From: a virus
DNA: 22,775 nt
IMG/VR virus record: IMGVR_UViG_3300036985_001830
Location: 1-22,775 of that record
Reading direction: 5' to 3' (one strand)
Shown: piece after piece, positions 6,874 to 19,555 of the stretch
Numbering within the stretch: the first letter of the stretch is position 1
Layout of the letters: each line of letters starts with the position of its first letter
The notes under the pieces: model-generated
What the model was told of the DNA's origin: nothing
The model's input: the letters and a program-made list of their open reading frames with translations, nothing else
Databases searched by the model: none
Translations under genes and position numbers: made by a program

Positions 6874-7506
6874 ATGTCCAATCTAGTAGCGTTCTCTCAA
6901 GCTGGCTTGCCAGCAGTCTCCACCCTGTCCACCGCTTTGCGTTCAATCCAATCCGATGTCGGCCCAGCTGGTACGGTCATCCTGAAAATGGACAAGACCG
7001 GCCACTGGGTCTTCGGTGCAGACCAGACCGAAGTGGAAGACGACTCCACATGGGCGGTCAATCCCTTCTCGTTTGTCCACGGCTTTATCGCTTGGGGTGA
7101 CGGTGAGGTGTTGGCCGAAAAGATGGCCAGCGTCAGCCAGCCATTGCCTGAACTCGACGAAGCGCCCCCAGGTGCCAAGAAGGGTTGGGAAACTCAAGTG
7201 GGCTTGTCTTTGAAGTGCATCAGCGGCGAAGACAAGGGCATGGAAGCTCGGTACACCACCACGTCAGTGGGCGGTAAAAAATCAGTTCAAACCTTGGCCA
7301 TCGCCTTGGCTGAACAGGTTGAGAAAGACCAGACCAAGCCCGTGGCCATCGTGCGCCTGAAGAAGGATCACTACAGCCACAAGTCCTACGGCAAGATCTA
7401 CACGCCCGTGTTCGAGATCATCGACTGGGTGAGCATGGATGGCGAACCTGAAGTTGTTGCGGAAGCACCCGCTGCACCAGCAGGTCGTCGTCGCCGGTCT
7501 GCCTGA
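6874..7506 (+). CDS. Conserved replication-module protein of unknown function
   Basis: A 210-residue protein starting at ATG 6874 after AAGGAAA. It contains KMDKTGHWVFGADQ, WAVNPFSFVHGFIAWGDGEV and a beta-rich second half ending IYTPVFEIIDWV, then an Ala/Pro linker and a basic tail (GRRRRSA). A gene of this kind between a DUF2800 nuclease and a polymerase is a recurring phage arrangement. An OB-fold single-strand binding role is plausible by position and beta-rich appearance, but no motif proves it, and the tail is basic instead of the acidic tail usual in SSBs. Its stop overlaps the polymerase start by one base. Confidence 0.75.
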   Translation: MSNLVAFSQAGLPAVSTLSTALRSIQSDVGPAGTVILKMDKTGHWVFGADQTEVEDDSTWAVNPFSFVHGFIAWGDGEVLAEKMASVSQPLPELDEAPPGAKKGWETQVGLSLKCISGEDKGMEARYTTTSVGGKKSVQTLAIALAEQVEKDQTKPVAIVRLKKDHYSHKSYGKIYTPVFEIIDWVSMDGEPEVVAEAPAAPAGRRRRSA

Positions 7507-9431
7507 TGACTCTTTGGGTTGACTTTGAAACCCGTAGCGCCTGCGACCTAAAAGCCGCAGGCGTTTACAACTACGCGCAAGACAACTCAACGTGTGTTTT
7601 ATGTATGTCCTACGCCTTTGACGATGATGACGTCCAGACGTGGCTACCATCGCAACCGTTTCCCGAAGCAGTACGTACCCACACCGGCATGATCTACGCC
7701 CACAACGCGGCGTTTGAACGCCTGATTTTTTGGTACGTGTTGGGCATTAACTTTGAGCTTGAGCAGTTTGTCTGCACCGCAGCACAAGCCCGCGCCAACT
7801 GCGCGCCTGGCTCGCTGGAAGACGTTGGCCGCTTTGCTGGCGCGTCCATGAAGAAAGACCACCGTGGTGCCCAGTTGATCCGCCTGCTGTCAATCCCACA
7901 GGCTGACGGCACCTTCCGCGAAGACCCTGCGCTCATGGCCGAGATGGTGGCCTATTGCGAACAGGACGTGCGCGCCATGCGGTCGATCAGCAAGGCCCTG
8001 CGCCCCCTTAGTGCTGACGAGCTGGCCGACTACCACGTCAACGAGCGCATCAACGACCGTGGCGTGTTGGTGGACGTGCCCTTGTGCAACGCCGCCGTCA
8101 AGTTCGCCAGCGACGAGCTGATTGAGATTGAGCAGATCGTGGCCGAGGTGACCGAAGGAGCCATTACCAGCGTCAGGTCACCTAAGATGCGCCAGTGGGT
8201 CATTGACCGCGTGGGGCCACAGGCCCTGAAGCTGATGTGGTCTGGTGAGAAATATTCGATTGACAAGACTGTGCGGGCCAACTTGCTCGCTATGGAGAAC
8301 CCAGATGAGATACCGCCCGCTGTTGCCGAGGTCATCCAATGCGCGGACGACCTATGGGCGTCTTCGGTTGCTAAGTTCAGCCGCCTTGCAAGCCTCGCAG
8401 ACGTCGAGGATCAGCGGGTCAGGGGAGCTTTCGTGTTTGCTGGAGGATCTGCGACAGGCCGAGCTTCAAGCTACGGAGCCCAAGTTCACAATTTCACTCG
8501 CAAGTGCGCCGAGTCGCCCGAAGACGTTAGAACTGCAATGGTCAGAGGCCATTCAATTGTTCCTAAATTTGGAAAGCGCGTTACTGATGTCCTCAAAGGA
8601 ATGCTCAGGCCCGCACTGATACCGGCTAAGGGTAAGCACCTAGTCGTGGCCGACTGGTCGTCCATTGAAGCCCGCGCCAATCCGTGGCTGTCCAACTGCC
8701 CAGCAGGCGAGCGCAAGCTGGCCATCTTTGCCAAGGGCGAGGACGTCTACAAGGTCAACGCCTCGGCCACCTTTGGCGTGGCCGTGGACGCGGTAGACGA
8801 TCATCAGCGCCAGATCGGCAAGGTTCAAGAGCTGGCCTGCGGCTTTGCCGGTGGCGTGGGTGCCTTTGCGGCCATGGGCCGTGTGTACGGCGTACACCTG
8901 CCCGAGTCCGACGCCAAGCGCATGGTGGACGCGTGGCGTAGGGCAAACCCTTGGTCGGTACCTTATTGGCAGAGCCTAGAAGAAGCCTACACCCGCGCCA
9001 TGAGAAACAAAGGCCACGGCTTCAGCGTGGGTCGGGTTACCTATATGTTCGACGGCCAGCACCTTTGGTACGCTCTACCCTCTGGGCGTGTGCTGTGCTA
9101 CCCGTTTGCCAAGCTGGAGCCCGATGGCGTGACCTACGCCAAGGCGGCGTGGAAGCCAGCGGCAGACGCAAAAGAATGGCCCCGTGCAAGGCTTTGGAAG
9201 GGCTTGGCATGTGAGAATATCACCCAAGCCACCGCCAACGATCTGCTGCGCCACTCACTGCGCCAGCTTGATGACGTGGTCTTGCACGTCCATGACGAGA
9301 TAGTGTTGGAAACCGATCGGCCAGAGGAAATGGCCGCTCGACTGAAAGAAGTGATGTGTACGCCACCCGCGTGGGCTGAGGGTTTGCCCTTAGACGCCGA
9401 GGTGGCGATCATGTCTAGATATGGCAAATAA
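7506..9431 (+). CDS. Family A DNA polymerase with 3'-5' exonuclease
   Basis: A 641-residue replicative polymerase. Exonuclease motifs: VDFETRS (D6, E8), HNAAFERL and YCEQDVRAM. Polymerase motif A is VVADWSSIEAR with Asp383, motif B is RQIGKVQELACGF with R435 and K439, and motif C is VLHVHDEIVLE with Asp597/Glu598. There is no 5' nuclease domain, as usual for phage PolA. Aligning R754/K758 of E. coli Pol I puts Leu443 at the F762 position and a Phe at the Y766 position. It is coupled to the upstream gene by TGATG. A hairpin with a - strand T-tract follows directly after the stop. Confidence 0.95.
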   Translation: MTLWVDFETRSACDLKAAGVYNYAQDNSTCVLCMSYAFDDDDVQTWLPSQPFPEAVRTHTGMIYAHNAAFERLIFWYVLGINFELEQFVCTAAQARANCAPGSLEDVGRFAGASMKKDHRGAQLIRLLSIPQADGTFREDPALMAEMVAYCEQDVRAMRSISKALRPLSADELADYHVNERINDRGVLVDVPLCNAAVKFASDELIEIEQIVAEVTEGAITSVRSPKMRQWVIDRVGPQALKLMWSGEKYSIDKTVRANLLAMENPDEIPPAVAEVIQCADDLWASSVAKFSRLASLADVEDQRVRGAFVFAGGSATGRASSYGAQVHNFTRKCAESPEDVRTAMVRGHSIVPKFGKRVTDVLKGMLRPALIPAKGKHLVVADWSSIEARANPWLSNCPAGERKLAIFAKGEDVYKVNASATFGVAVDAVDDHQRQIGKVQELACGFAGGVGAFAAMGRVYGVHLPESDAKRMVDAWRRANPWSVPYWQSLEEAYTRAMRNKGHGFSVGRVTYMFDGQHLWYALPSGRVLCYPFAKLEPDGVTYAKAAWKPAADAKEWPRARLWKGLACENITQATANDLLRHSLRQLDDVVLHVHDEIVLETDRPEEMAARLKEVMCTPPAWAEGLPLDAEVAIMSRYGK

Positions 9432-9468: not shown

Positions 9469-11733
9469 GTGGAATTTCTGGACTTTATCACAAAACTCGC
9501 CCCTGAAGGCGAGACGGCTCTGATTGTGCGTCAAAAACCACAATTGAAGGACGGCGAGATCCAACTACACGCCGACGGCGCGGTCAAGTGCACATGGCCA
9601 GCGTGGTTGCCCGACGCAAGCCGGATCAAGGCTGGCCAAGCGTGGTACGGCAACACCGCTTCGTTCATCATCGACCGCTTTATGGATGGCCGCGTGTCAG
9701 CGTCAGCCGCCAATTGCGAGTACATCTTGGTGATGATGCTGGACGACATCGGCACCAAGTCCAAGACGCCACCGCTGGAGCCCACGTGGATCATGGAAAC
9801 GTCCGAGGGCTCCTACCAGTGGGGCTACGCCTTCGTTGACCAGCCCACCAAGGCCGAGTTCAGCGCAGCCATTAAAGCTATTGCAGACGCGGGCTACACC
9901 GACCCTGGGGCTTGCAACCCCGTCCGCAACTTCCGCTTGCCTGGCTCGGTCAACCTGAAGCCTGGCCGCGACAGCTTTGAAGCCCGCTTGGTCGAGTTCC
10001 ACCCCGAGCGCGAGTACACCTTGACCGACATCTGCGCCACGCTTGGCGTCACACCAGTCGAGCCCGACTCCCTTACCCTGCGCCCGATCCGCCTGTCCGA
10101 CGATGGTGCGGATGACGTCATGGCGTGGCTCTCCCAGCAGGGCCTGCTGCTGTCCCGCCCCAACGGCGAGGGCTGGGCGGGCGTCATCTGCCCCAACAGC
10201 GCCGAGCACACCGACGGCAACCCCGAGGGCCGGTACATGCCCGCCAACCGTGCCTACTGTTGCCTGCATTCGCATTGCGTGGACTTCGACTCCCGTCTGT
10301 TCCTACAGTGGGTGGCCGACAACGACGGCCCAGCGCACACCCCTGGGCTTCGCGAGGAACTGCTGGCGCAGGCCATGGACTCGGCCCTGTCCAAGCTCAC
10401 GCCTACAGTCGAGTACCCCAACGAAGCCGCGCGCATCATCGCCGAGGTCGAGCGCAAAGAGCTTGGCAGGGTTGAGAAGTCCGAGTGGTGGAACCGCTTT
10501 GCGTACATCCAAGACGATGACGCCTACTTCGACATGCAAGACCGGCGCGAGCTGACGCGGGGCACCTTCAACGCCTTGTTCCGCCATATCGACTGCAAGT
10601 CCATCCACAACAGCAAACGCAAGGTCGAGGCGTCCATATCGTTTGACGAAAACAGGCAGGCCAAAGGGGCCAAAGCCCTGACCGGCATCACCTACGCAGC
10701 AGGCGCGTCCATCTTGGTGGCCCGCGACGGCTTGGCCTACGGCAACCGCTGGCGCGACGCCCGCCCAGCACCCAAGGCCGGTGACGTCAGCCCGTGGCTG
10801 GCGCACGTCGAGCGCATGGTGCCCGAGCCCTTCGAGCGTGAGCACCTGCTGAACGCCCTGGCCCACAAGGTGCAATTCCCCGCCCATAAGATCAACCACG
10901 CCATCCTCATGGGCGGCAACCATGGCAGCGGCAAAGACACCCTCTTCGCCCCCTTCTTCTGGGCGATCGGTGGCGAGGCCAAGGCCAACTGCTCACTGGT
11001 CAAAAACGAAGACCTTAACTCCCAGTGGGGCTACGCCCTCGAGTGTGAAGTGATGGAAATCGCCGAGCTACGCCAAGCAGAGGCCAAGGATCGGCGCGCG
11101 CTTGAAAACACCCTCAAGCCCATCATTGCAGCGCCCCCTGAGCTTCTCATGGTCAACCGCAAGGGCTTGCACCCGTACATGGCCCTGAACCGCGTGTTTG
11201 TCATTGCATTCTCCAATGAGCGCGTGGCCATCTCGCTCCCCTCAGAAGATCGCCGGTGGTTTGTCCTGTGGTGCGCCGCCTCTAAGCTACCCGAAGCGCA
11301 GGCCATCTCGATTTGGAACTGGTACCAGCACCGCGCAGGCTTTGAGGCCGTCGCCCATTACCTGCACACCCGCGACGTGTCCGATTGGAACCCCTCAGCG
11401 CCGCCCCCCATGACTGAGGCCAAAGCCATCATGGTCGAGCACGGCATGAGCACCGCCGAGTCTTTCCTAGTTGACCAGATGACGCGCCGCGTGGGTGAAT
11501 TCTCCCGTGGGGCCATTGCGTCGCCCTTCCACGCCGTTTGCGACCGCTTGCAGGGCCTGGCCCCTGCTGGGGTCAAGATAGTGCAGGCAGCTCTATTGCA
11601 TGCCCTTAAAGAGGCCGGATGGATCGACATGGGCCGCATGGCGTCGCGCCTGCATGGCACAAAGAAGCATATATTTTGCGCTCCTGAGCTGGCCAAGGCC
11701 ACCAAGTCAGAATTGCGCGATATGGTCGAGTAA
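9469..11733 (+). CDS. Primase-helicase fusion (AEP-like primase, SF3 helicase)
   Basis: A 754-residue protein starting at GTG 9469 with AAGGAGAT upstream. The N-terminal part resembles archaeo-eukaryotic/RepB-type primases: YILVMMLDDIG with D92/D93 and RNFRLPGSVNLKP at 154-164. A zinc-like cluster follows (C241, H247, C264/C265, H267/H269, C270). The C-terminal half carries a superfamily 3 helicase of the DUF5906 type with Walker A GGNHGSGKDT (482-491) and a later NRVFVIAFSNE sensor-like segment. It should unwind DNA and make primers for the polymerase encoded directly upstream. The last ~130 residues look like a winged-helix tail. Confidence 0.88.
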   Translation: MEFLDFITKLAPEGETALIVRQKPQLKDGEIQLHADGAVKCTWPAWLPDASRIKAGQAWYGNTASFIIDRFMDGRVSASAANCEYILVMMLDDIGTKSKTPPLEPTWIMETSEGSYQWGYAFVDQPTKAEFSAAIKAIADAGYTDPGACNPVRNFRLPGSVNLKPGRDSFEARLVEFHPEREYTLTDICATLGVTPVEPDSLTLRPIRLSDDGADDVMAWLSQQGLLLSRPNGEGWAGVICPNSAEHTDGNPEGRYMPANRAYCCLHSHCVDFDSRLFLQWVADNDGPAHTPGLREELLAQAMDSALSKLTPTVEYPNEAARIIAEVERKELGRVEKSEWWNRFAYIQDDDAYFDMQDRRELTRGTFNALFRHIDCKSIHNSKRKVEASISFDENRQAKGAKALTGITYAAGASILVARDGLAYGNRWRDARPAPKAGDVSPWLAHVERMVPEPFEREHLLNALAHKVQFPAHKINHAILMGGNHGSGKDTLFAPFFWAIGGEAKANCSLVKNEDLNSQWGYALECEVMEIAELRQAEAKDRRALENTLKPIIAAPPELLMVNRKGLHPYMALNRVFVIAFSNERVAISLPSEDRRWFVLWCAASKLPEAQAISIWNWYQHRAGFEAVAHYLHTRDVSDWNPSAPPPMTEAKAIMVEHGMSTAESFLVDQMTRRVGEFSRGAIASPFHAVCDRLQGLAPAGVKIVQAALLHALKEAGWIDMGRMASRLHGTKKHIFCAPELAKATKSELRDMVE

Positions 11734-14701: not shown

Positions 14702-14751
14702 GATGTACTTTCTTTGGTTTGTTGCCGGTGCAATATCGCGCCGGTGAAGAT

Positions 14752-14780
14752 AATGTAAGGTTTTCCCTTGCAATTGTCAA
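14752..14780 (-). promoter_or_regulatory. Near-consensus sigma70 promoter for the - strand operon
   Basis: On the - strand a perfect -35 TTGACA (revcomp of 14775-14780) and a -10 TACATT (revcomp of 14752-14757) are separated by 17 bp. The first start codon lies about 50 bp downstream. This is the best sigma70-type promoter in the window and suggests that host RNA polymerase transcribes the small-gene operon, probably early. Confidence 0.75.
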
Positions 14781-14791
14781 CAACTATTTTA

Positions 14792-14806
14792 TAGGGACAA
14801 ACCCTA
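14792..14806. promoter_or_regulatory. Possible operator dyad upstream of the -35 box
   Basis: TAGGG-ACAAA-CCCTA is a perfect inverted repeat with 5-bp arms, 12 bp upstream of the -35 box of the - strand promoter. Size and location suit an activator or repressor site. Arms are short, so chance is possible. Confidence 0.35.
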
Positions 14807-14901
14807 ATGTGGTGTGGGCGGTATTGTCGCGGCGTGGGCGGTGGCGTGGGCTTCAAATTGCCCACGGGAAAGCGCTGCAAATACTGGGCTTTTGGGGCTT
14901 T

Positions 14902-15028
14902 GTGGGTAATATTGTCATTGTTTTCTGTTGGATCTAAGAAAGATTTATATGTAATACTATATAGTTACACAGTAGGATGAGACACGCCGTTTGGCCAGCG
15001 ACTGAAACCGCATGACAATATTGCCTAC
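14902..15028. repeat. Inverted repeat pair with 17-bp arms
   Basis: Arm 14902-14918 (GTGGGTAATATTGTCAT) matches the reverse complement of 15012-15028 (ATGACAATATTGCCTAC) at 15 of 17 positions, including 11 in a row. A weaker third copy of the first arm is at 14814-14828. Each arm contains the iteron-like ATTGCCYAC core. The spacer holds the palindrome ACTATATAGT at 14956-14965. Confidence 0.7.
14956..14965. promoter_or_regulatory. AT-rich palindrome ACTATATAGT
   Basis: A perfect 10-bp palindrome with further partial symmetry outside (GTAA on the left, TTAC on the right). It lies in the AT-rich centre between the two arms of the large inverted repeat. It could be a protein-binding dyad or an easily melted element. 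Confidence 0.35.
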
Positions 15029-15037
15029 ATTGCCTAC
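15020..15037 (+). repeat. Iteron-like tandem pair, copy 1
   Basis: Two perfect tandem copies of ATTGCCTAC (15020-15028 and 15029-15037), followed by ATTATTG. First of three such pairs before the terminase gene. Confidence 0.75.
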
Positions 15038-15044
15038 ATTATTG

Positions 15045-15124
15045 TTTTGATAAGTGTCCAGGCCATGGCCACATGGCCACGCGCCACCCTGTTGCATAGC
15101 ATTTTGATAACTATTCCAAGCCAT
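15045..15124 (+). repeat. Degenerate direct repeat with TTTTGATAA
   Basis: TTTTGATAA at 15045-15053 and 15102-15110, each followed by a TCCA and GCCAT at equal distances (15057-15066 and 15115-15124, about 57-58 bp apart). The unit links iteron pairs 1 and 2, so the whole block looks like a duplicated module. Confidence 0.55.
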
Positions 15125-15140
15125 TGCCTACATTGCCCAC
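15123..15140 (+). repeat. Iteron-like tandem pair, copy 2
   Basis: ATTGCCTAC (15123-15131) directly followed by ATTGCCCAC (15132-15140), one base different from pair 1 and about 103 bp downstream of it. Confidence 0.7.
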
Positions 15141-15151
15141 AGTAAGAAAGC

Positions 15152-15184
15152 TGTAAGGTTTGTAAGCTGTAAGGATTCTGTAAG
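15152..15184 (+). repeat. Four TGTAAG short repeats
   Basis: TGTAAG begins at 15152, 15161, 15168 and 15179, with CTGTAAGG as an extended form of three of the copies. Spacing is irregular (9, 7 and 11 bp). The cluster directly abuts the G-rich tract. Confidence 0.55.
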
Positions 15185-15207
15185 GGTTTGAGGGGGAGGG
15201 GGTAGGG
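15184..15207 (+). other. G-quadruplex motif
   Basis: G-runs of 3, 5, 5 and 3 separated by loops TTTGA, A and TA, a canonical G3N1-7 pattern on the + strand, with another G4 run at 15218-15221. It lies about 70-90 bp before the terminase start. Confidence 0.6.
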
Positions 15208-15265
15208 CCGACGGCCAGGGGTCAACGGTGACGGAGGGATCGCAAACAATTTTTTATTTTTAAAT

Positions 15266-15283
15266 ATTGCCCACATGACCTAC
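15266..15283 (+). repeat. Iteron-like tandem pair, copy 3 (degenerate), at the terminase start
   Basis: ATTGCCCAC (15266-15274) followed by ATGACCTAC (15275-15283). The second unit differs from the consensus at two positions and contains the ATG of the small terminase gene, so the repeat array reaches into the coding region. Confidence 0.5.
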
Positions 15284-15739
15284 AATTCGCGCATGTTTCA
15301 AAGTCTTCCATTTGAGCCGCGCAAGGTTGTTGCAACCGAAGCGCGGTTAAACCGAATCTACGAAGCCGCCAAGCTCGGCCTCAAAGGCGACGCATTGGCC
15401 CTGGCTTCCGGCATGTTGCCCACCGAGTACCGGCAACTGTGCGAGCTTGACCCAATGGCGGACATGGCCGCGCTTAAAGGCAAAGCCGACGGCGAACTGG
15501 AGATGTCGGTGTGCTTGCACAAAGCAGCCAAGGAAGGCGACGCCAAGGCGGCGCTGGCGATCCTCCAGCACTCACACGGCTGGGTGGCCAAGCAGTCCAT
15601 CAGCATAGATGTTGATCAGCGCATCTCGATCACTGGCGCGCTAAGAGAAGCCGAGTCGCGCGTCATTGACGTCATTGCCAACGAGCCCAGTCCTAAATTG
15701 AAACAAGAGGCACATGCAGAACACTATCTACAGCGCTGA
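15275..15739 (+). CDS. Terminase small subunit (likely)
   Basis: A 154-residue protein (or 148 if started at ATG 15293; no ribosome binding site decides between them). An N-terminal helical region (ARLNRIYEAAKLGLKGDALALASGM) looks like a helix-turn-helix DNA-recognition unit, followed by helices (ELEMSVCLHKAAKEGDAKAALAIL) and a short beta segment (SISIDVDQRISIT). This layout and the direct overlap with the large terminase gene are typical of small terminase subunits, which bind the packaging site. The repeats just upstream could be its target. Confidence 0.75.
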   Translation: MTYNSRMFQSLPFEPRKVVATEARLNRIYEAAKLGLKGDALALASGMLPTEYRQLCELDPMADMAALKGKADGELEMSVCLHKAAKEGDAKAALAILQHSHGWVAKQSISIDVDQRISITGALREAESRVIDVIANEPSPKLKQEAHAEHYLQR

Positions 15740-17237
15740 AGACGAACAGGAACTGATGGCTAGGCTTTGGAGTCCGGCCATCAAGGACAACCCGCTGGCG
15801 TTTGTGATGTTTGCATTCCCCTGGGGCGTCAAGGGTACGCCACTGGAGCATTTCCAAGGGCCGCGCAAATGGCAACGCGAAGTGCTGCTGGACATCGCTG
15901 AGCACATTAAGATCAACCAGAACAAGCTGGATTTTGGCGTACTGCAAGAAGCCATCTCGTCTGGCCGTGGTATTGGCAAGTCGGCGTTGGTCAGTTGGAT
16001 CACGATTTGGATGGCGGCGACCAGGATTGGCTCGACGACCATCATCTCGGCCAACTCGGAGTCCCAGCTCAGAAGTATCACATGGGCCGAGATCACAAAA
16101 TGGCTGGCCATGGCCATCAACAGCCACTGGTTTGAGGTGTCAGCCACCCGCGTGATGCCCGCCAAGTGGCTGACTGAGCTGGTCGAGCGGGACTTGAAGA
16201 AGGGCACACGCTACTGGGGCGTCGAAGGGCGGCTATGGTCGGCGGAAAACCCCGACGCGTACGCTGGTGTGCACAACTTCGACGGTGTTTTGGTCATTTT
16301 TGACGAAGCAAGCGGCATAGACGACTCAATTTGGGCGGTTACTGGCGGTTTTTTCACAGAAAATACCCCAAATCGCTTCTGGATGGCGTTTTCCAACCCT
16401 CGCCGCAACACGGGGTACTTCTACGAAGCGTTTAACAGTAAACGTGACTTCTGGAAAACCCGCGTGGTAGACGCCCGCACGGTCGAGGGCACCGACAAAG
16501 CGGTGTACCAGCGCATCATCGACGAATATGGGCCGGATTCAGCCCAAGCGCACGTCGAGGTGTACGGTATGTTTCCCAACGCGGGGGATGATCAGTTCAT
16601 CGGGGCGGATCTGGTGGACGACGCCATGAAACGGACAAAGTACCAAGACCAATCAGCACCCATCATCATCGGCGTAGACCCCGCACGGTTTGGAGCGGAC
16701 GCAACCGTCATCGCGGTGCGGCAGGGACGGGACATCGTGAAGATCATGCGGCACAGGGGCGACGACACCATGACGGTGGTGGGGCATGTAATTGAAGCGA
16801 TTGAAGAGTACAAGCCGACGTTGGTCGTGATCGACGAAGGTGGGCTGGGCGCTGGGATTGTGGACAGGCTGAAAGAGCAACGGTACAAGATCAAAGGTGT
16901 AAACTTTGGTAACAAGTCCAGTCACCCTGTGATGTATGGAAACAAGCGGGCAGAGATGTGGGGCAAGATGCGCGAGTGGCTGAAAAGCGCCGCCATTCCT
17001 AACGATCGGTTCTTAAAGACTGATTTAATTTCGCCTATGATGAAACCTGATTCACGTGGAACAATTTTCTTGGAAAGCAAGAAAGACATGAAGTCACGTG
17101 GGCTGGCGTCACCTGACGCGGCAGACGCGATTGCTGTTACATTTGCGTTTCCTGTAGCACATCGGGAGTACACTGAAGCCACACGCAAGGTATACTCGGG
17201 CCAACGTGCTGTAGCAACTGGATGGATGGGGAGTTAA
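15714..17237 (+). CDS. Terminase large subunit
   Basis: A 507-residue packaging ATPase and nuclease. Walker A is SGRGIGKS (residues 83-90), Walker B is VLVIFDEA with D197/E198, followed by a coupling-like segment (MAFSNPRR). The RNase H-like nuclease has acidic residues at D322 (GVDPARFGAD), D374 (VVIDEGG) and D468/D471 (SPDAADAI). Both domains are complete. It overlaps the small subunit gene by 26 nt. It cuts concatemeric DNA and pumps it into the prohead through the portal encoded downstream. Confidence 0.95.
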   Translation: MQNTIYSAEDEQELMARLWSPAIKDNPLAFVMFAFPWGVKGTPLEHFQGPRKWQREVLLDIAEHIKINQNKLDFGVLQEAISSGRGIGKSALVSWITIWMAATRIGSTTIISANSESQLRSITWAEITKWLAMAINSHWFEVSATRVMPAKWLTELVERDLKKGTRYWGVEGRLWSAENPDAYAGVHNFDGVLVIFDEASGIDDSIWAVTGGFFTENTPNRFWMAFSNPRRNTGYFYEAFNSKRDFWKTRVVDARTVEGTDKAVYQRIIDEYGPDSAQAHVEVYGMFPNAGDDQFIGADLVDDAMKRTKYQDQSAPIIIGVDPARFGADATVIAVRQGRDIVKIMRHRGDDTMTVVGHVIEAIEEYKPTLVVIDEGGLGAGIVDRLKEQRYKIKGVNFGNKSSHPVMYGNKRAEMWGKMREWLKSAAIPNDRFLKTDLISPMMKPDSRGTIFLESKKDMKSRGLASPDAADAIAVTFAFPVAHREYTEATRKVYSGQRAVATGWMGS

Positions 17238-17390
17238 ATGGCAACTAAACCTGGACTTTACGCTAACATTCACGCAAAGCGCGAGCGCATTAAAGAAGGC
17301 TCGGGCGAAAAAATGCGAAAGCCTGGCACTGCTGGCGCGCCCACGGCCAAGGCGTTCAAAGAGTCAGCTAAAACTGCGAAGAAAAAATAA
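17238..17390 (+). CDS. Small basic protein, DUF6321-like (50 aa)
   Basis: A 50-residue, Lys-rich ORF with GGGGAG five bases before ATG 17238. It begins MATKPGLYANIHAKRERIKE and continues with GSGEKMRKPGTAGAPTAKAF. The LYANIHAKR...GSGEKMRKPG pattern recurs between terminase and portal genes of phages, and I recall the name DUF6321 for it. It is probably a small virion or assembly protein that can bind DNA. Its stop overlaps the portal start (TAATG). Confidence 0.75.
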   Translation: MATKPGLYANIHAKRERIKEGSGEKMRKPGTAGAPTAKAFKESAKTAKKK

Positions 17391-19555
17391 TGGATTACAC
17401 AGGCATTGCCGCAGCAGGTGCTGTGGCCAACGGCGGCAAGCAAAAAAGCTCAGAGTCTAATGTCTTGGCGACTGCCCGCGCGCGTTTGAACATGGCGATT
17501 GCTGCTTTGTCTGAAAGTCGTGAAGATGAGATTGACGACCTGAAGTTCTACGCAGGTTCGCCCGACAACCACTGGCAATGGCCTGCTGACGTACTGGCCA
17601 CACGTGGCGCGGTGCAGGGGCAAACAATTAACGCCAGACCGTGTTTGACGGTCAACAAACTTCCTCAGCACGTAAGGCAGGTCACCAATGACCAAAGGCA
17701 AAACCGCCCAAGTGGCAAAGTTATTCCAGCCGACGACCACGCAGACATTGAAGTTGCAGAAATCTTCAATGGAATGGTCAGACACATTGAATACATCAGC
17801 GACGCCGATGTCGCTTACGACACGGCCTGTGAAAACCAAGTCTCCTACGGCGAAGGTTACATCCGCATCCTGACCGAGTACTGCGACGAGAACACATTTG
17901 ATCAAGACATCAAGATTGGCCGCGTACGCAACAGCTTCTCGGTCTACATGGATCCAACCATTCAAGACCCAACAGGCGCAGACGCCAAGTGGTGCTTCGT
18001 TACTGAAGACATCACCAAAGCTGACTACGAGCGGATGTACCCCGACTCTGCGCCCATCACCACCTTGCAAACACTGGGTGTGGGCGACCAGAATTTGAGC
18101 CAGTGGCTCACTGAAGACACCATCCGCGTGGCCGATTACTACTATCTGGACTACGACCGCGCGACGCTCAACTTGTACCCAGGGAACGTGACCGCTTTTG
18201 AAAACACACCCGAAGACAAACAACTGAAAGCAATTTATGGCAAACCTAAAAGAAGTCGTGAGTCGGATCGTGTCAAGATTAAATACTGCAAGATCAACGG
18301 CTATGAAATTCTTGAAGAACGCGATTGGGCGGGGAAATACATCCCAGTAGTCCGCATCGTCGGCAATGAATTTGAAGTCGATGGTCGCCTGTATGTGTCG
18401 GGCTTGGTGCGTAACGCCAAGGACGCCCAGCGCATGTACAACTACTGGGTGAGCCAAGAAGCAGAGATGCTGGCATTGGCCCCCAAAGCGCCGTTTATTG
18501 GTTACGGTGGCCAGTTTGAAGGGTACGAGAATCAGTGGAAAACGGCCAACACCAACAACTGGCCGTATCTGGAGGTCAATCCAGACGTCACAGACGGCTC
18601 TGGCAATATGTTGCCGCTGCCAGCCCGTGCACAGCCTCCAATGGCCTCCAGCGGGCTGTTGCAAGCCAAAGCTGGCGCGTCTGAGGACATCAAGTCGTCT
18701 ACTGGCCAATACAACGCATCTTTGGGCATGGGCTCAAACGAACGCTCAGGAAAAGCAATTCTTGCGCGTCAACGTGAAGGCGACGTAGGTACATACCACT
18801 ATGGCGACAATTTGGCCCGTGGTGTGCGTCACATTGTGCGTCAGTTGGTGGACTTGATCCCCAAGATTTACGACACACAGCGTGTGGCCCGCATCATTGG
18901 CTTGGACGGCGAAACTAAGATGGTCAAAATTGACCCAGCTCAGGAAGAGCCGGTCAAGAAAATCATGCAAGACGACATCGTGATCGACAAGATTTACAAC
19001 CCCAACGTCGGCAAGTACGACGTGGTGGTGGCCACCGGCCCAGGGTACGCGACCAAGCGTCAAGAAGCCTTGGAAGCCATGGCCCAGTTGCTGCAAGGCA
19101 ACCCAAGCTTGTGGGCTGTGGCTGGCGACTTGTTTGTCAAGAACATGGACTGGCCAGGTGCTCAAGAGATGGCCAAGCGGTTTGCCAAGACCATCGACCC
19201 CAAACTCATGGAAGACGGTGACAAGCAGCCCGAGTTGCAAGCTGCCGAGCAACAAATGCAGGCTATGGGTCAAGAGTTGGATCAACTGCATGAAATGCTT
19301 AAAAACGTCGGCAAGTCGATTGAAGCGCAAGATATGCAACGCAAAGATTTTGAAGCTGAAGTCAAGATGTATGAGGCCGAAACCAAGCGAATTGCTGCGG
19401 TGCAAGCAGGCATGACTGAGCAACAAATTCAAGATATTGCTATGGGCGTAGTCGCTGCGGCAATGGAATCGCAAAGCATGATGAACCAGATGCCTGAAAT
19501 GCGCGAAGAACCAATGCAAGAAGAAATGATGCCACCACAAGGAATGCCCCAATGA
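17390..19555 (+). CDS. Portal protein, P22 type
   Basis: A 721-residue protein with the features of P22-like portals: an N-terminal helical and alpha/beta section (SREDEIDDLKFYAGS, NARPCLTVNKLPQHVRQVTN, DQRQNRP), a central segment with SGKAILARQREGD, and a long C-terminal Gln/Glu/Met-rich helical tail (from ~590), the likely barrel region. It forms the dodecameric DNA channel at one capsid vertex, binds the terminase during packaging and later the tail. Start coupled to the upstream gene; no ribosome binding site of its own is obvious. P22-type portals suggest a podovirus-like particle. Confidence 0.9.
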   Translation: MDYTGIAAAGAVANGGKQKSSESNVLATARARLNMAIAALSESREDEIDDLKFYAGSPDNHWQWPADVLATRGAVQGQTINARPCLTVNKLPQHVRQVTNDQRQNRPSGKVIPADDHADIEVAEIFNGMVRHIEYISDADVAYDTACENQVSYGEGYIRILTEYCDENTFDQDIKIGRVRNSFSVYMDPTIQDPTGADAKWCFVTEDITKADYERMYPDSAPITTLQTLGVGDQNLSQWLTEDTIRVADYYYLDYDRATLNLYPGNVTAFENTPEDKQLKAIYGKPKRSRESDRVKIKYCKINGYEILEERDWAGKYIPVVRIVGNEFEVDGRLYVSGLVRNAKDAQRMYNYWVSQEAEMLALAPKAPFIGYGGQFEGYENQWKTANTNNWPYLEVNPDVTDGSGNMLPLPARAQPPMASSGLLQAKAGASEDIKSSTGQYNASLGMGSNERSGKAILARQREGDVGTYHYGDNLARGVRHIVRQLVDLIPKIYDTQRVARIIGLDGETKMVKIDPAQEEPVKKIMQDDIVIDKIYNPNVGKYDVVVATGPGYATKRQEALEAMAQLLQGNPSLWAVAGDLFVKNMDWPGAQEMAKRFAKTIDPKLMEDGDKQPELQAAEQQMQAMGQELDQLHEMLKNVGKSIEAQDMQRKDFEAEVKMYEAETKRIAAVQAGMTEQQIQDIAMGVVAAAMESQSMMNQMPEMREEPMQEEMMPPQGMPQ

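Follow-up and report, generated by a model that had tools for sequence, protein, structure and literature searches.

The alpha protein of satellite phage P4, in which primase and helicase are fused, acts as an initiator and binds short iterons at ori/crr. PICI/SaPI replicons are described as combining a Pri-Rep initiator with an iteron origin (Ubeda 2007, as cited in PMC7581432), and in PICI origins an AT-rich region is flanked by two iteron sets (PMC6092414). The C-terminal domain of the Primase_Cterm helicase Cch2 of SCCmec binds direct repeats in the adjacent intergenic region (PMC7581432). In the PLE satellites of Vibrio cholerae, the DNA-binding domain of RepA and the origin covary by modular swapping, as has been tested experimentally (PMC8263062). 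Here we describe a phage locus with an arrangement like that of PICI origins, which is probably a replication origin read by the C-terminal domain of the phage's own primase-helicase.

The window that we analysed, a 22.8-kb viral contig (22,775 nucleotides), is from a podovirus according to its gene content. Its genes include DNA polymerase A (7506-9431), an exonuclease, a SNF2-type helicase and a P22-like portal protein (17390-19555). A primase-helicase of 754 residues (9469-11733, plus strand) combines a DUF5906/D5-like SF3 helicase with an AEP-like N-terminus, and is the proposed iteron-reading initiator. Further along, a 590-bp gap (14703-15292), identified from the ORF table and syntenic with the gap that precedes the small terminase (TerS) in relatives, separates a leftward gene block, whose first gene has its ATG at 14702, from a rightward terminase operon. 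This operon contains TerS (15293-15739, plus strand), assigned by position and relatives, and the large terminase TerL (15714-17237, plus strand; PHROG phrog_2, E 5.8e-40). The gene in the same position in OR003940 carries a TerS annotation. The TerS ORF of the window opens at 15275, where its first ATG falls within the last iteron described below. Because the homologues align from residue 7, TerS probably starts at the ATG at 15293, and the gap therefore extends to 15292. The TACAAT located 6 bp upstream of this ATG points to a likely leaderless TerS mRNA. Searches for terminator-like hairpins in the gap and for Rfam matches to structured RNAs anywhere in the window found none.

To place the gap among related phages we used a TerL scan, which yielded 80 loci with TerL identities of 86-95%, and primase scans, which yielded many more. 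The pre-TerS gap was kept in about 160 distinct relatives, where it has up to three parts: an iteron/AT-rich module on the left, often a palindrome array, and a polypurine element with a T tract. An earlier, sequence-only reading had called the segment non-coding, and this holds because the segment changes fast and has no conserved ORF in the relatives.

The six forward copies of ATTGCCYAC that this reading had reported are present, at 14857, 15020, 15029, 15123, 15132 and 15266. Dinucleotide shuffles of the gap contain 0.03 copies and none of 2000 shuffles reached six, while the rest of the 22.8-kb window contains no copy. Two of the three proposed tandem pairs are perfect 9-bp repeats (15020/15029 and 15123/15132), which were absent from all shuffles; in the third (15266/15275) the second copy is the degenerate ATGACCTAC. 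Inverted iterons of the degenerate form GTGGGC(G/T), three in number and located at 14814, 14834 and 14846 (14814-14852, minus strand), had been missed. The proposed inverted copy at 14902 is GTGGGTAAT (14902-14910, minus strand), which is indeed inverted but has one mismatch to the reverse complement, and which belongs to a 23-nt inverted repeat (14896-14918 / 15012-15034).

These sites are arranged around an AT-rich stretch (14907-14981), our proposed unwinding element, with GTGGGTAAT at its left edge. AT content is 72% across 14917-14981, the 60-mer from 14907 has one of the lowest GC contents of any 60-mer in the window, and the AT-rich core is also found in relatives. To its left lie the degenerate inverted iterons (14814-14910) and an isolated forward iteron, ATTGCCCAC (14857-14865, plus strand), and to its right the direct pairs (15020-15140), namely ATTGCCTAC-ATTGCCTAC (15020-15037, plus strand) and ATTGCCTAC-ATTGCCCAC (15123-15140, plus strand). 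Relatives have the same layout. The duplication of TTTTGATAA 57 bp apart was confirmed (15045-15053 and 15102-15110, plus strand), and this element is found directly 3' of the iteron pair in close relatives too. So were the four TGTAAG repeats (15152, 15161, 15168 and 15179; 15152-15184, plus strand), which occupy the place of a palindrome array in many relatives. The last iteron pair, ATTGCCCAC-ATGACCTAC (15266-15283, plus strand), overlaps a promoter-like site of TerS.

This rightward site, TTTAAA-16-TACAAT (15259-15286, plus strand), and a leftward one, TTGACA-17-TACATT (14780-14752, minus strand), are matches to the promoter consensus only; the leftward motif (ttgtcaa / gtaag) was found again in many relatives. 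Promoter-like sites that point both ways, one of them overlapped by iterons, could mean that the repeats are regulator operators of two divergent operons and that the gap holds no origin. We consider this unlikely, since the two repeat sets flank an AT-rich stretch and the repeat sequence is tracked by the replicative primase-helicase and by none of the other proteins tested, as detailed below. Autoregulation by the initiator is compatible with an origin in the gap.

While the arrangement of the iterons is conserved across relatives, their sequence is not. The types found include ATTGCCYAC, TTGTCCAC, TGTCCAT, TGACCCAC, TGACCCAA, TGACTCAC, AGCCAAC and others. Other parts of the locus vary as well. 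Arrays with at least three copies of the 20-bp palindrome AAGTTAGTGNNCACTAACTT were found in 47 of 163 gaps and are absent from the window, where the TGTAAG repeats take their place; in relatives (L013, L011, L022, L024, L042, L048 and others) these palindromes sit between the iterons and the polypurine element. The L300 gap has a long tandem GGTCGGC run in that position. The final 480 bp of L117 contain gap-like sequence (CCCCCTCCCCCC..) that is inverted and follows shortly after the primase gene, either a rearrangement or a chimeric contig. Insertions separate TerS and TerL in L004, L008, L015, L030 and L032, and a homing endonuclease gene immediately precedes TerS in MW202483 (L083, 10712-11158).

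Since the repeat sequence varies between phages, the protein that reads it can be sought by covariation. Repeat profiles were derived automatically from gap 7-mers, superseding a first manual sorting into types. We reasoned that near-identical copies of a repeat-binding protein should not face different repeats. Among 108 phages, primase residues 700-754 followed repeat type with a Mantel r of 0.60, which remained 0.60 in a partial test on TerL, and none of 200 permutations scored as high. The corresponding values were 0.14 for TerL, 0.12 for primase residues 1-75 and 0.12 for TerS (partial 0.007). For pairs at least 98% identical, the median profile cosine was 0.83 for primase 700-754 versus 0.19 for TerS. 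The primases of L004 and L022, phages with different repeats, are 96% identical overall and least so, at 84%, in the window of residues 701-750; in this window those of L004 and L032, phages with the same repeats, are 98% identical.

In several phages, small terminases bind repeated sites close to their own gene. The sequence-only reading had offered this as one of two roles for the repeats, which would then be pac or cosB-like sites at which TerS starts packaging. The repeats do adjoin terS directly, and the conserved polypurine element and T tract adjoin the repeats. However, near-identical TerS proteins accompany different repeats in L040/L044, L035/L042 and L065/L076, which led us to reject TerS as the reader; relatives that keep the terminase without the repeats had been named by the sequence-only reading itself as a ground for refutation. 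L040 and L044 have TerS 99.3% identical, with ATTGCCTAC pairs in the former and TTGTCCAC-type sites in the latter. L065 and L076 share 99% identity in TerS and 98% in polA, whereas primase residues 500-754 are only 52-65% identical and the iterons differ. A pac or cosB site would be expected to be conserved or to covary with TerS, and the repeat sequence does neither: in addition to the negligible partial correlation, the best TerS column carries 0.18 bit for base 3 of the repeat. Contig ends are scattered, with no accumulation at any single base. Packaging from the repeats is therefore highly improbable, and the other role that had been proposed, an origin, is the one favoured by the layout and by the covariation with the primase-helicase tail.

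Other candidate readers were rejected as well. Pairs with 95-99% identical polymerase, nucleotidyltransferase or exonuclease have different repeats, and none of the columns of these proteins exceeds 0.28 bit for base 3; the comparison covered these proteins, TerS, TerL and the primase-helicase rather than each small regulator gene in the stretch from primase to TerS. For DnaA, PF08299 was found in only 1 of 22 relatives. Sites resembling TTATCCACA occur in some relatives, and MW202483 encodes a DnaA-type HTH protein. Certain TTGTCCAC-type gaps (L068, L077, L298) hold DnaA-box-like TTATCCAC sites too, which could recruit host DnaA.

The primase region that covaries with the repeats maps to a compact predicted domain. 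AlphaFold2 folds the C-terminal 95 residues (codons 660-754, 11446-11730, plus strand) into a helix-strand-helix-helix-strand-wing-strand topology with a pLDDT of 95, and we interpret these residues as a winged-helix DNA-binding domain. Its third helix is conserved. A fold search with the domain alone gave weak winged-helix matches (best Z 6.7), so it is chiefly the predicted topology that supports this label. The full-length model is of moderate quality (mean pLDDT 66). At the N-terminus it is similar to an AEP primase (Z 9.4), and the helicase half resembles the NrS-1 CTR (Z 20.9), SaPI5 Rep (Z 16.2), ASFV PrimPol and pox D5.

We then scanned every column of six proteins for correspondence with individual bases of the repeat core, numbered T1 G2 C3 C4 Y5 A6 C7. 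The best predictor of base 3 was primase residue 730 (11656-11658, plus strand), with 0.91 of 1.00 bit; the best column outside the primase reached 0.28 bit and the best TerS/TerL column 0.19. Base 7 was best predicted by primase residue 727 (11647-11649, plus strand), with 0.70 of 0.70 bit, compared to 0.51 bit for the best column outside the primase and 0.31 for the best in TerS/TerL. Both residues are in the predicted wing tip (residues 725-732, 11641-11664, plus strand). D or E at residue 730 corresponds to T at base 3 and any other residue to C, a rule with which 106 of the 108 phages agree. It has no opposite independent switch, with p-values of 0.002 over about 10 pairs on a tree of primase residues 1-640 and of 6e-5 over about 15 pairs on the TerL tree, both uncorrected for the choice of column. 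Residue 725 (K/A) was also considered for base 3, but fails in the GACYCAC group and performs less well than residue 730. At residue 727, R goes with C at base 7 (92/92), S with T (4/4) and G with A (11/11). Because this involves just three changes on the tree, the base-7 rule is without independent statistical support.

As the columns had been chosen by a scan, we tested a fresh held-out set. Here 51 of 53 and 45 of 47 predictions were correct, mostly in the default (common) class. T at base 3 was predicted six times and scored correct four times; the misses were L305 and L307, of which L305 does contain a ATTGTCCACA copy. The one prediction of A at base 7 was correct (L300). An exception of a different kind is the L253-L293 group, whose members have an identical C-terminal domain, yet carry either ATGACCCACA or TGCCAACA repeats. 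This suggests that residues 727 and 730 do not determine bases 1, 2 and 5, or that another protein contributes; these bases may be read loosely or by something else. As ATGACCCACA and TGCCAACA agree at bases 3 and 7, the rule for those bases stands.

Adjacent to the iterons, but outside the iteron system, is the strongly conserved polypurine/G-rich element GAGGGGGAGGGGGTAGGGCC...ACGGTGACGGAGGG..CAAACAA with its T tract (15190-15262, plus strand), a candidate packaging or promoter-control site. A motif search matched it in 252 of 269 loci, some through the A/T-tract motif alone, and it is kept even at TerS identities of about 60%. No relative of the window's primase was found in DSL-LC05, and its repeats are unrelated (TGACCCACTGGG), in line with the primase-helicase as their reader, but its polypurine element is recognisable. 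The divergence of this element correlates with TerL (r 0.64) and TerS (0.60) more than with the primase tail (0.39), which would fit a separate cis element that travels with the terminase genes. Lambda cos is also located just before terS. Packaging may thus start here, at a cos or pac, in which case the gap would serve both as origin and as packaging locus. Such a role is compatible with an origin at the iterons, and we put it forward tentatively. Linkage to terS alone would yield the same correlation, however, and control of a late promoter is an equally possible function of 15190-15262. We also looked for a cos cut in metagenome contig ends, but the upstream ends near the element are spread over about 350 bp without a single-base pile-up. 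Moreover, both annotated relatives have circular records, which together with the P22-like TerL and portal fit headful packaging.

Taken together, we infer that, most probably, the gap is a replication origin and the primase-helicase binds the iterons there through its C-terminal winged-helix domain. In the mechanism that we propose, wing residue 727 would set iteron base 7 and residue 730 base 3. The primase-helicase would assemble on the inverted iterons and on the direct pairs, melt the AT-rich stretch between them and load itself, after which the primase and the phage DNA polymerase A would begin replication. GC skew, which the sequence-only reading had proposed as a check, gave no support, as there is no clean switch at the gap within the window.

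More speculatively, the window may represent a widespread lineage of freshwater podoviruses with PICI-type origins, in which a few wing residues write origin specificity and specificity switches at a high rate next to near-identical neighbour genes, selected for replication exclusivity. Switching would proceed by domain swaps and point changes, and exclusivity could act against co-infecting relatives, satellites or origin-cutting nucleases (compare Odn and PLE). With few wing residues writing specificity, the origin sequence would be predictable from the protein sequence. If the main reading of an origin read by the primase-helicase holds, the natural variation offers a protein-to-origin code that can be read for a replicative helicase that loads itself, with more than 10 independent switches, and a PICI-like self-loading helicase/origin arrangement is present in ordinary phages of a large lineage. 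An annotation guess of pac/cos is then replaced by an origin assignment that is specific and falsifiable and that may be extended to uncultured relatives.

Of the known systems, the P4 alpha protein is similar as an initiator with fused primase and helicase, but no second repeat cluster was seen in the window. NrS-1, a primase-polymerase-helicase, provides the closest solved structure for the helicase half, with a weak sequence match (E 0.0019), but identity is about 17% and our phage retains a separate DNA polymerase A. Cch2 is part of a mobile cassette with a separate primase-polymerase, 5-nt iterons and a putative origin. As in PLE, the predicted DNA-binding domain of the proposed initiator covaries with the putative origin by modular swapping while the remaining protein stays; PLE, however, has a RepA_N-type initiator and three semi-palindromic iterons of about 30 bp. 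The PICI/SaPI systems share the D5/SF3 primase-helicase, supported here by DUF5906 and the structure matches, short iterons with a C-terminal domain as their proposed reader, an AT-rich stretch between two iteron sets, and repeats that are distinct between elements. They differ in that the window is from a P22-like podovirus, which encodes a DNA polymerase A of its own, rather than from a satellite, and in that binding of the iterons is inferred here. PICI/SaPI-type origins lie directly 3' of the helicase gene, while the origin proposed here is beside terS, some 3-3.5 kb away, as the helicase gene ends at 11733, the iterons begin at 14814 and several ORFs lie between. Because of this difference in position, we suggest that the locus works like a PICI origin but is not a member of that group.
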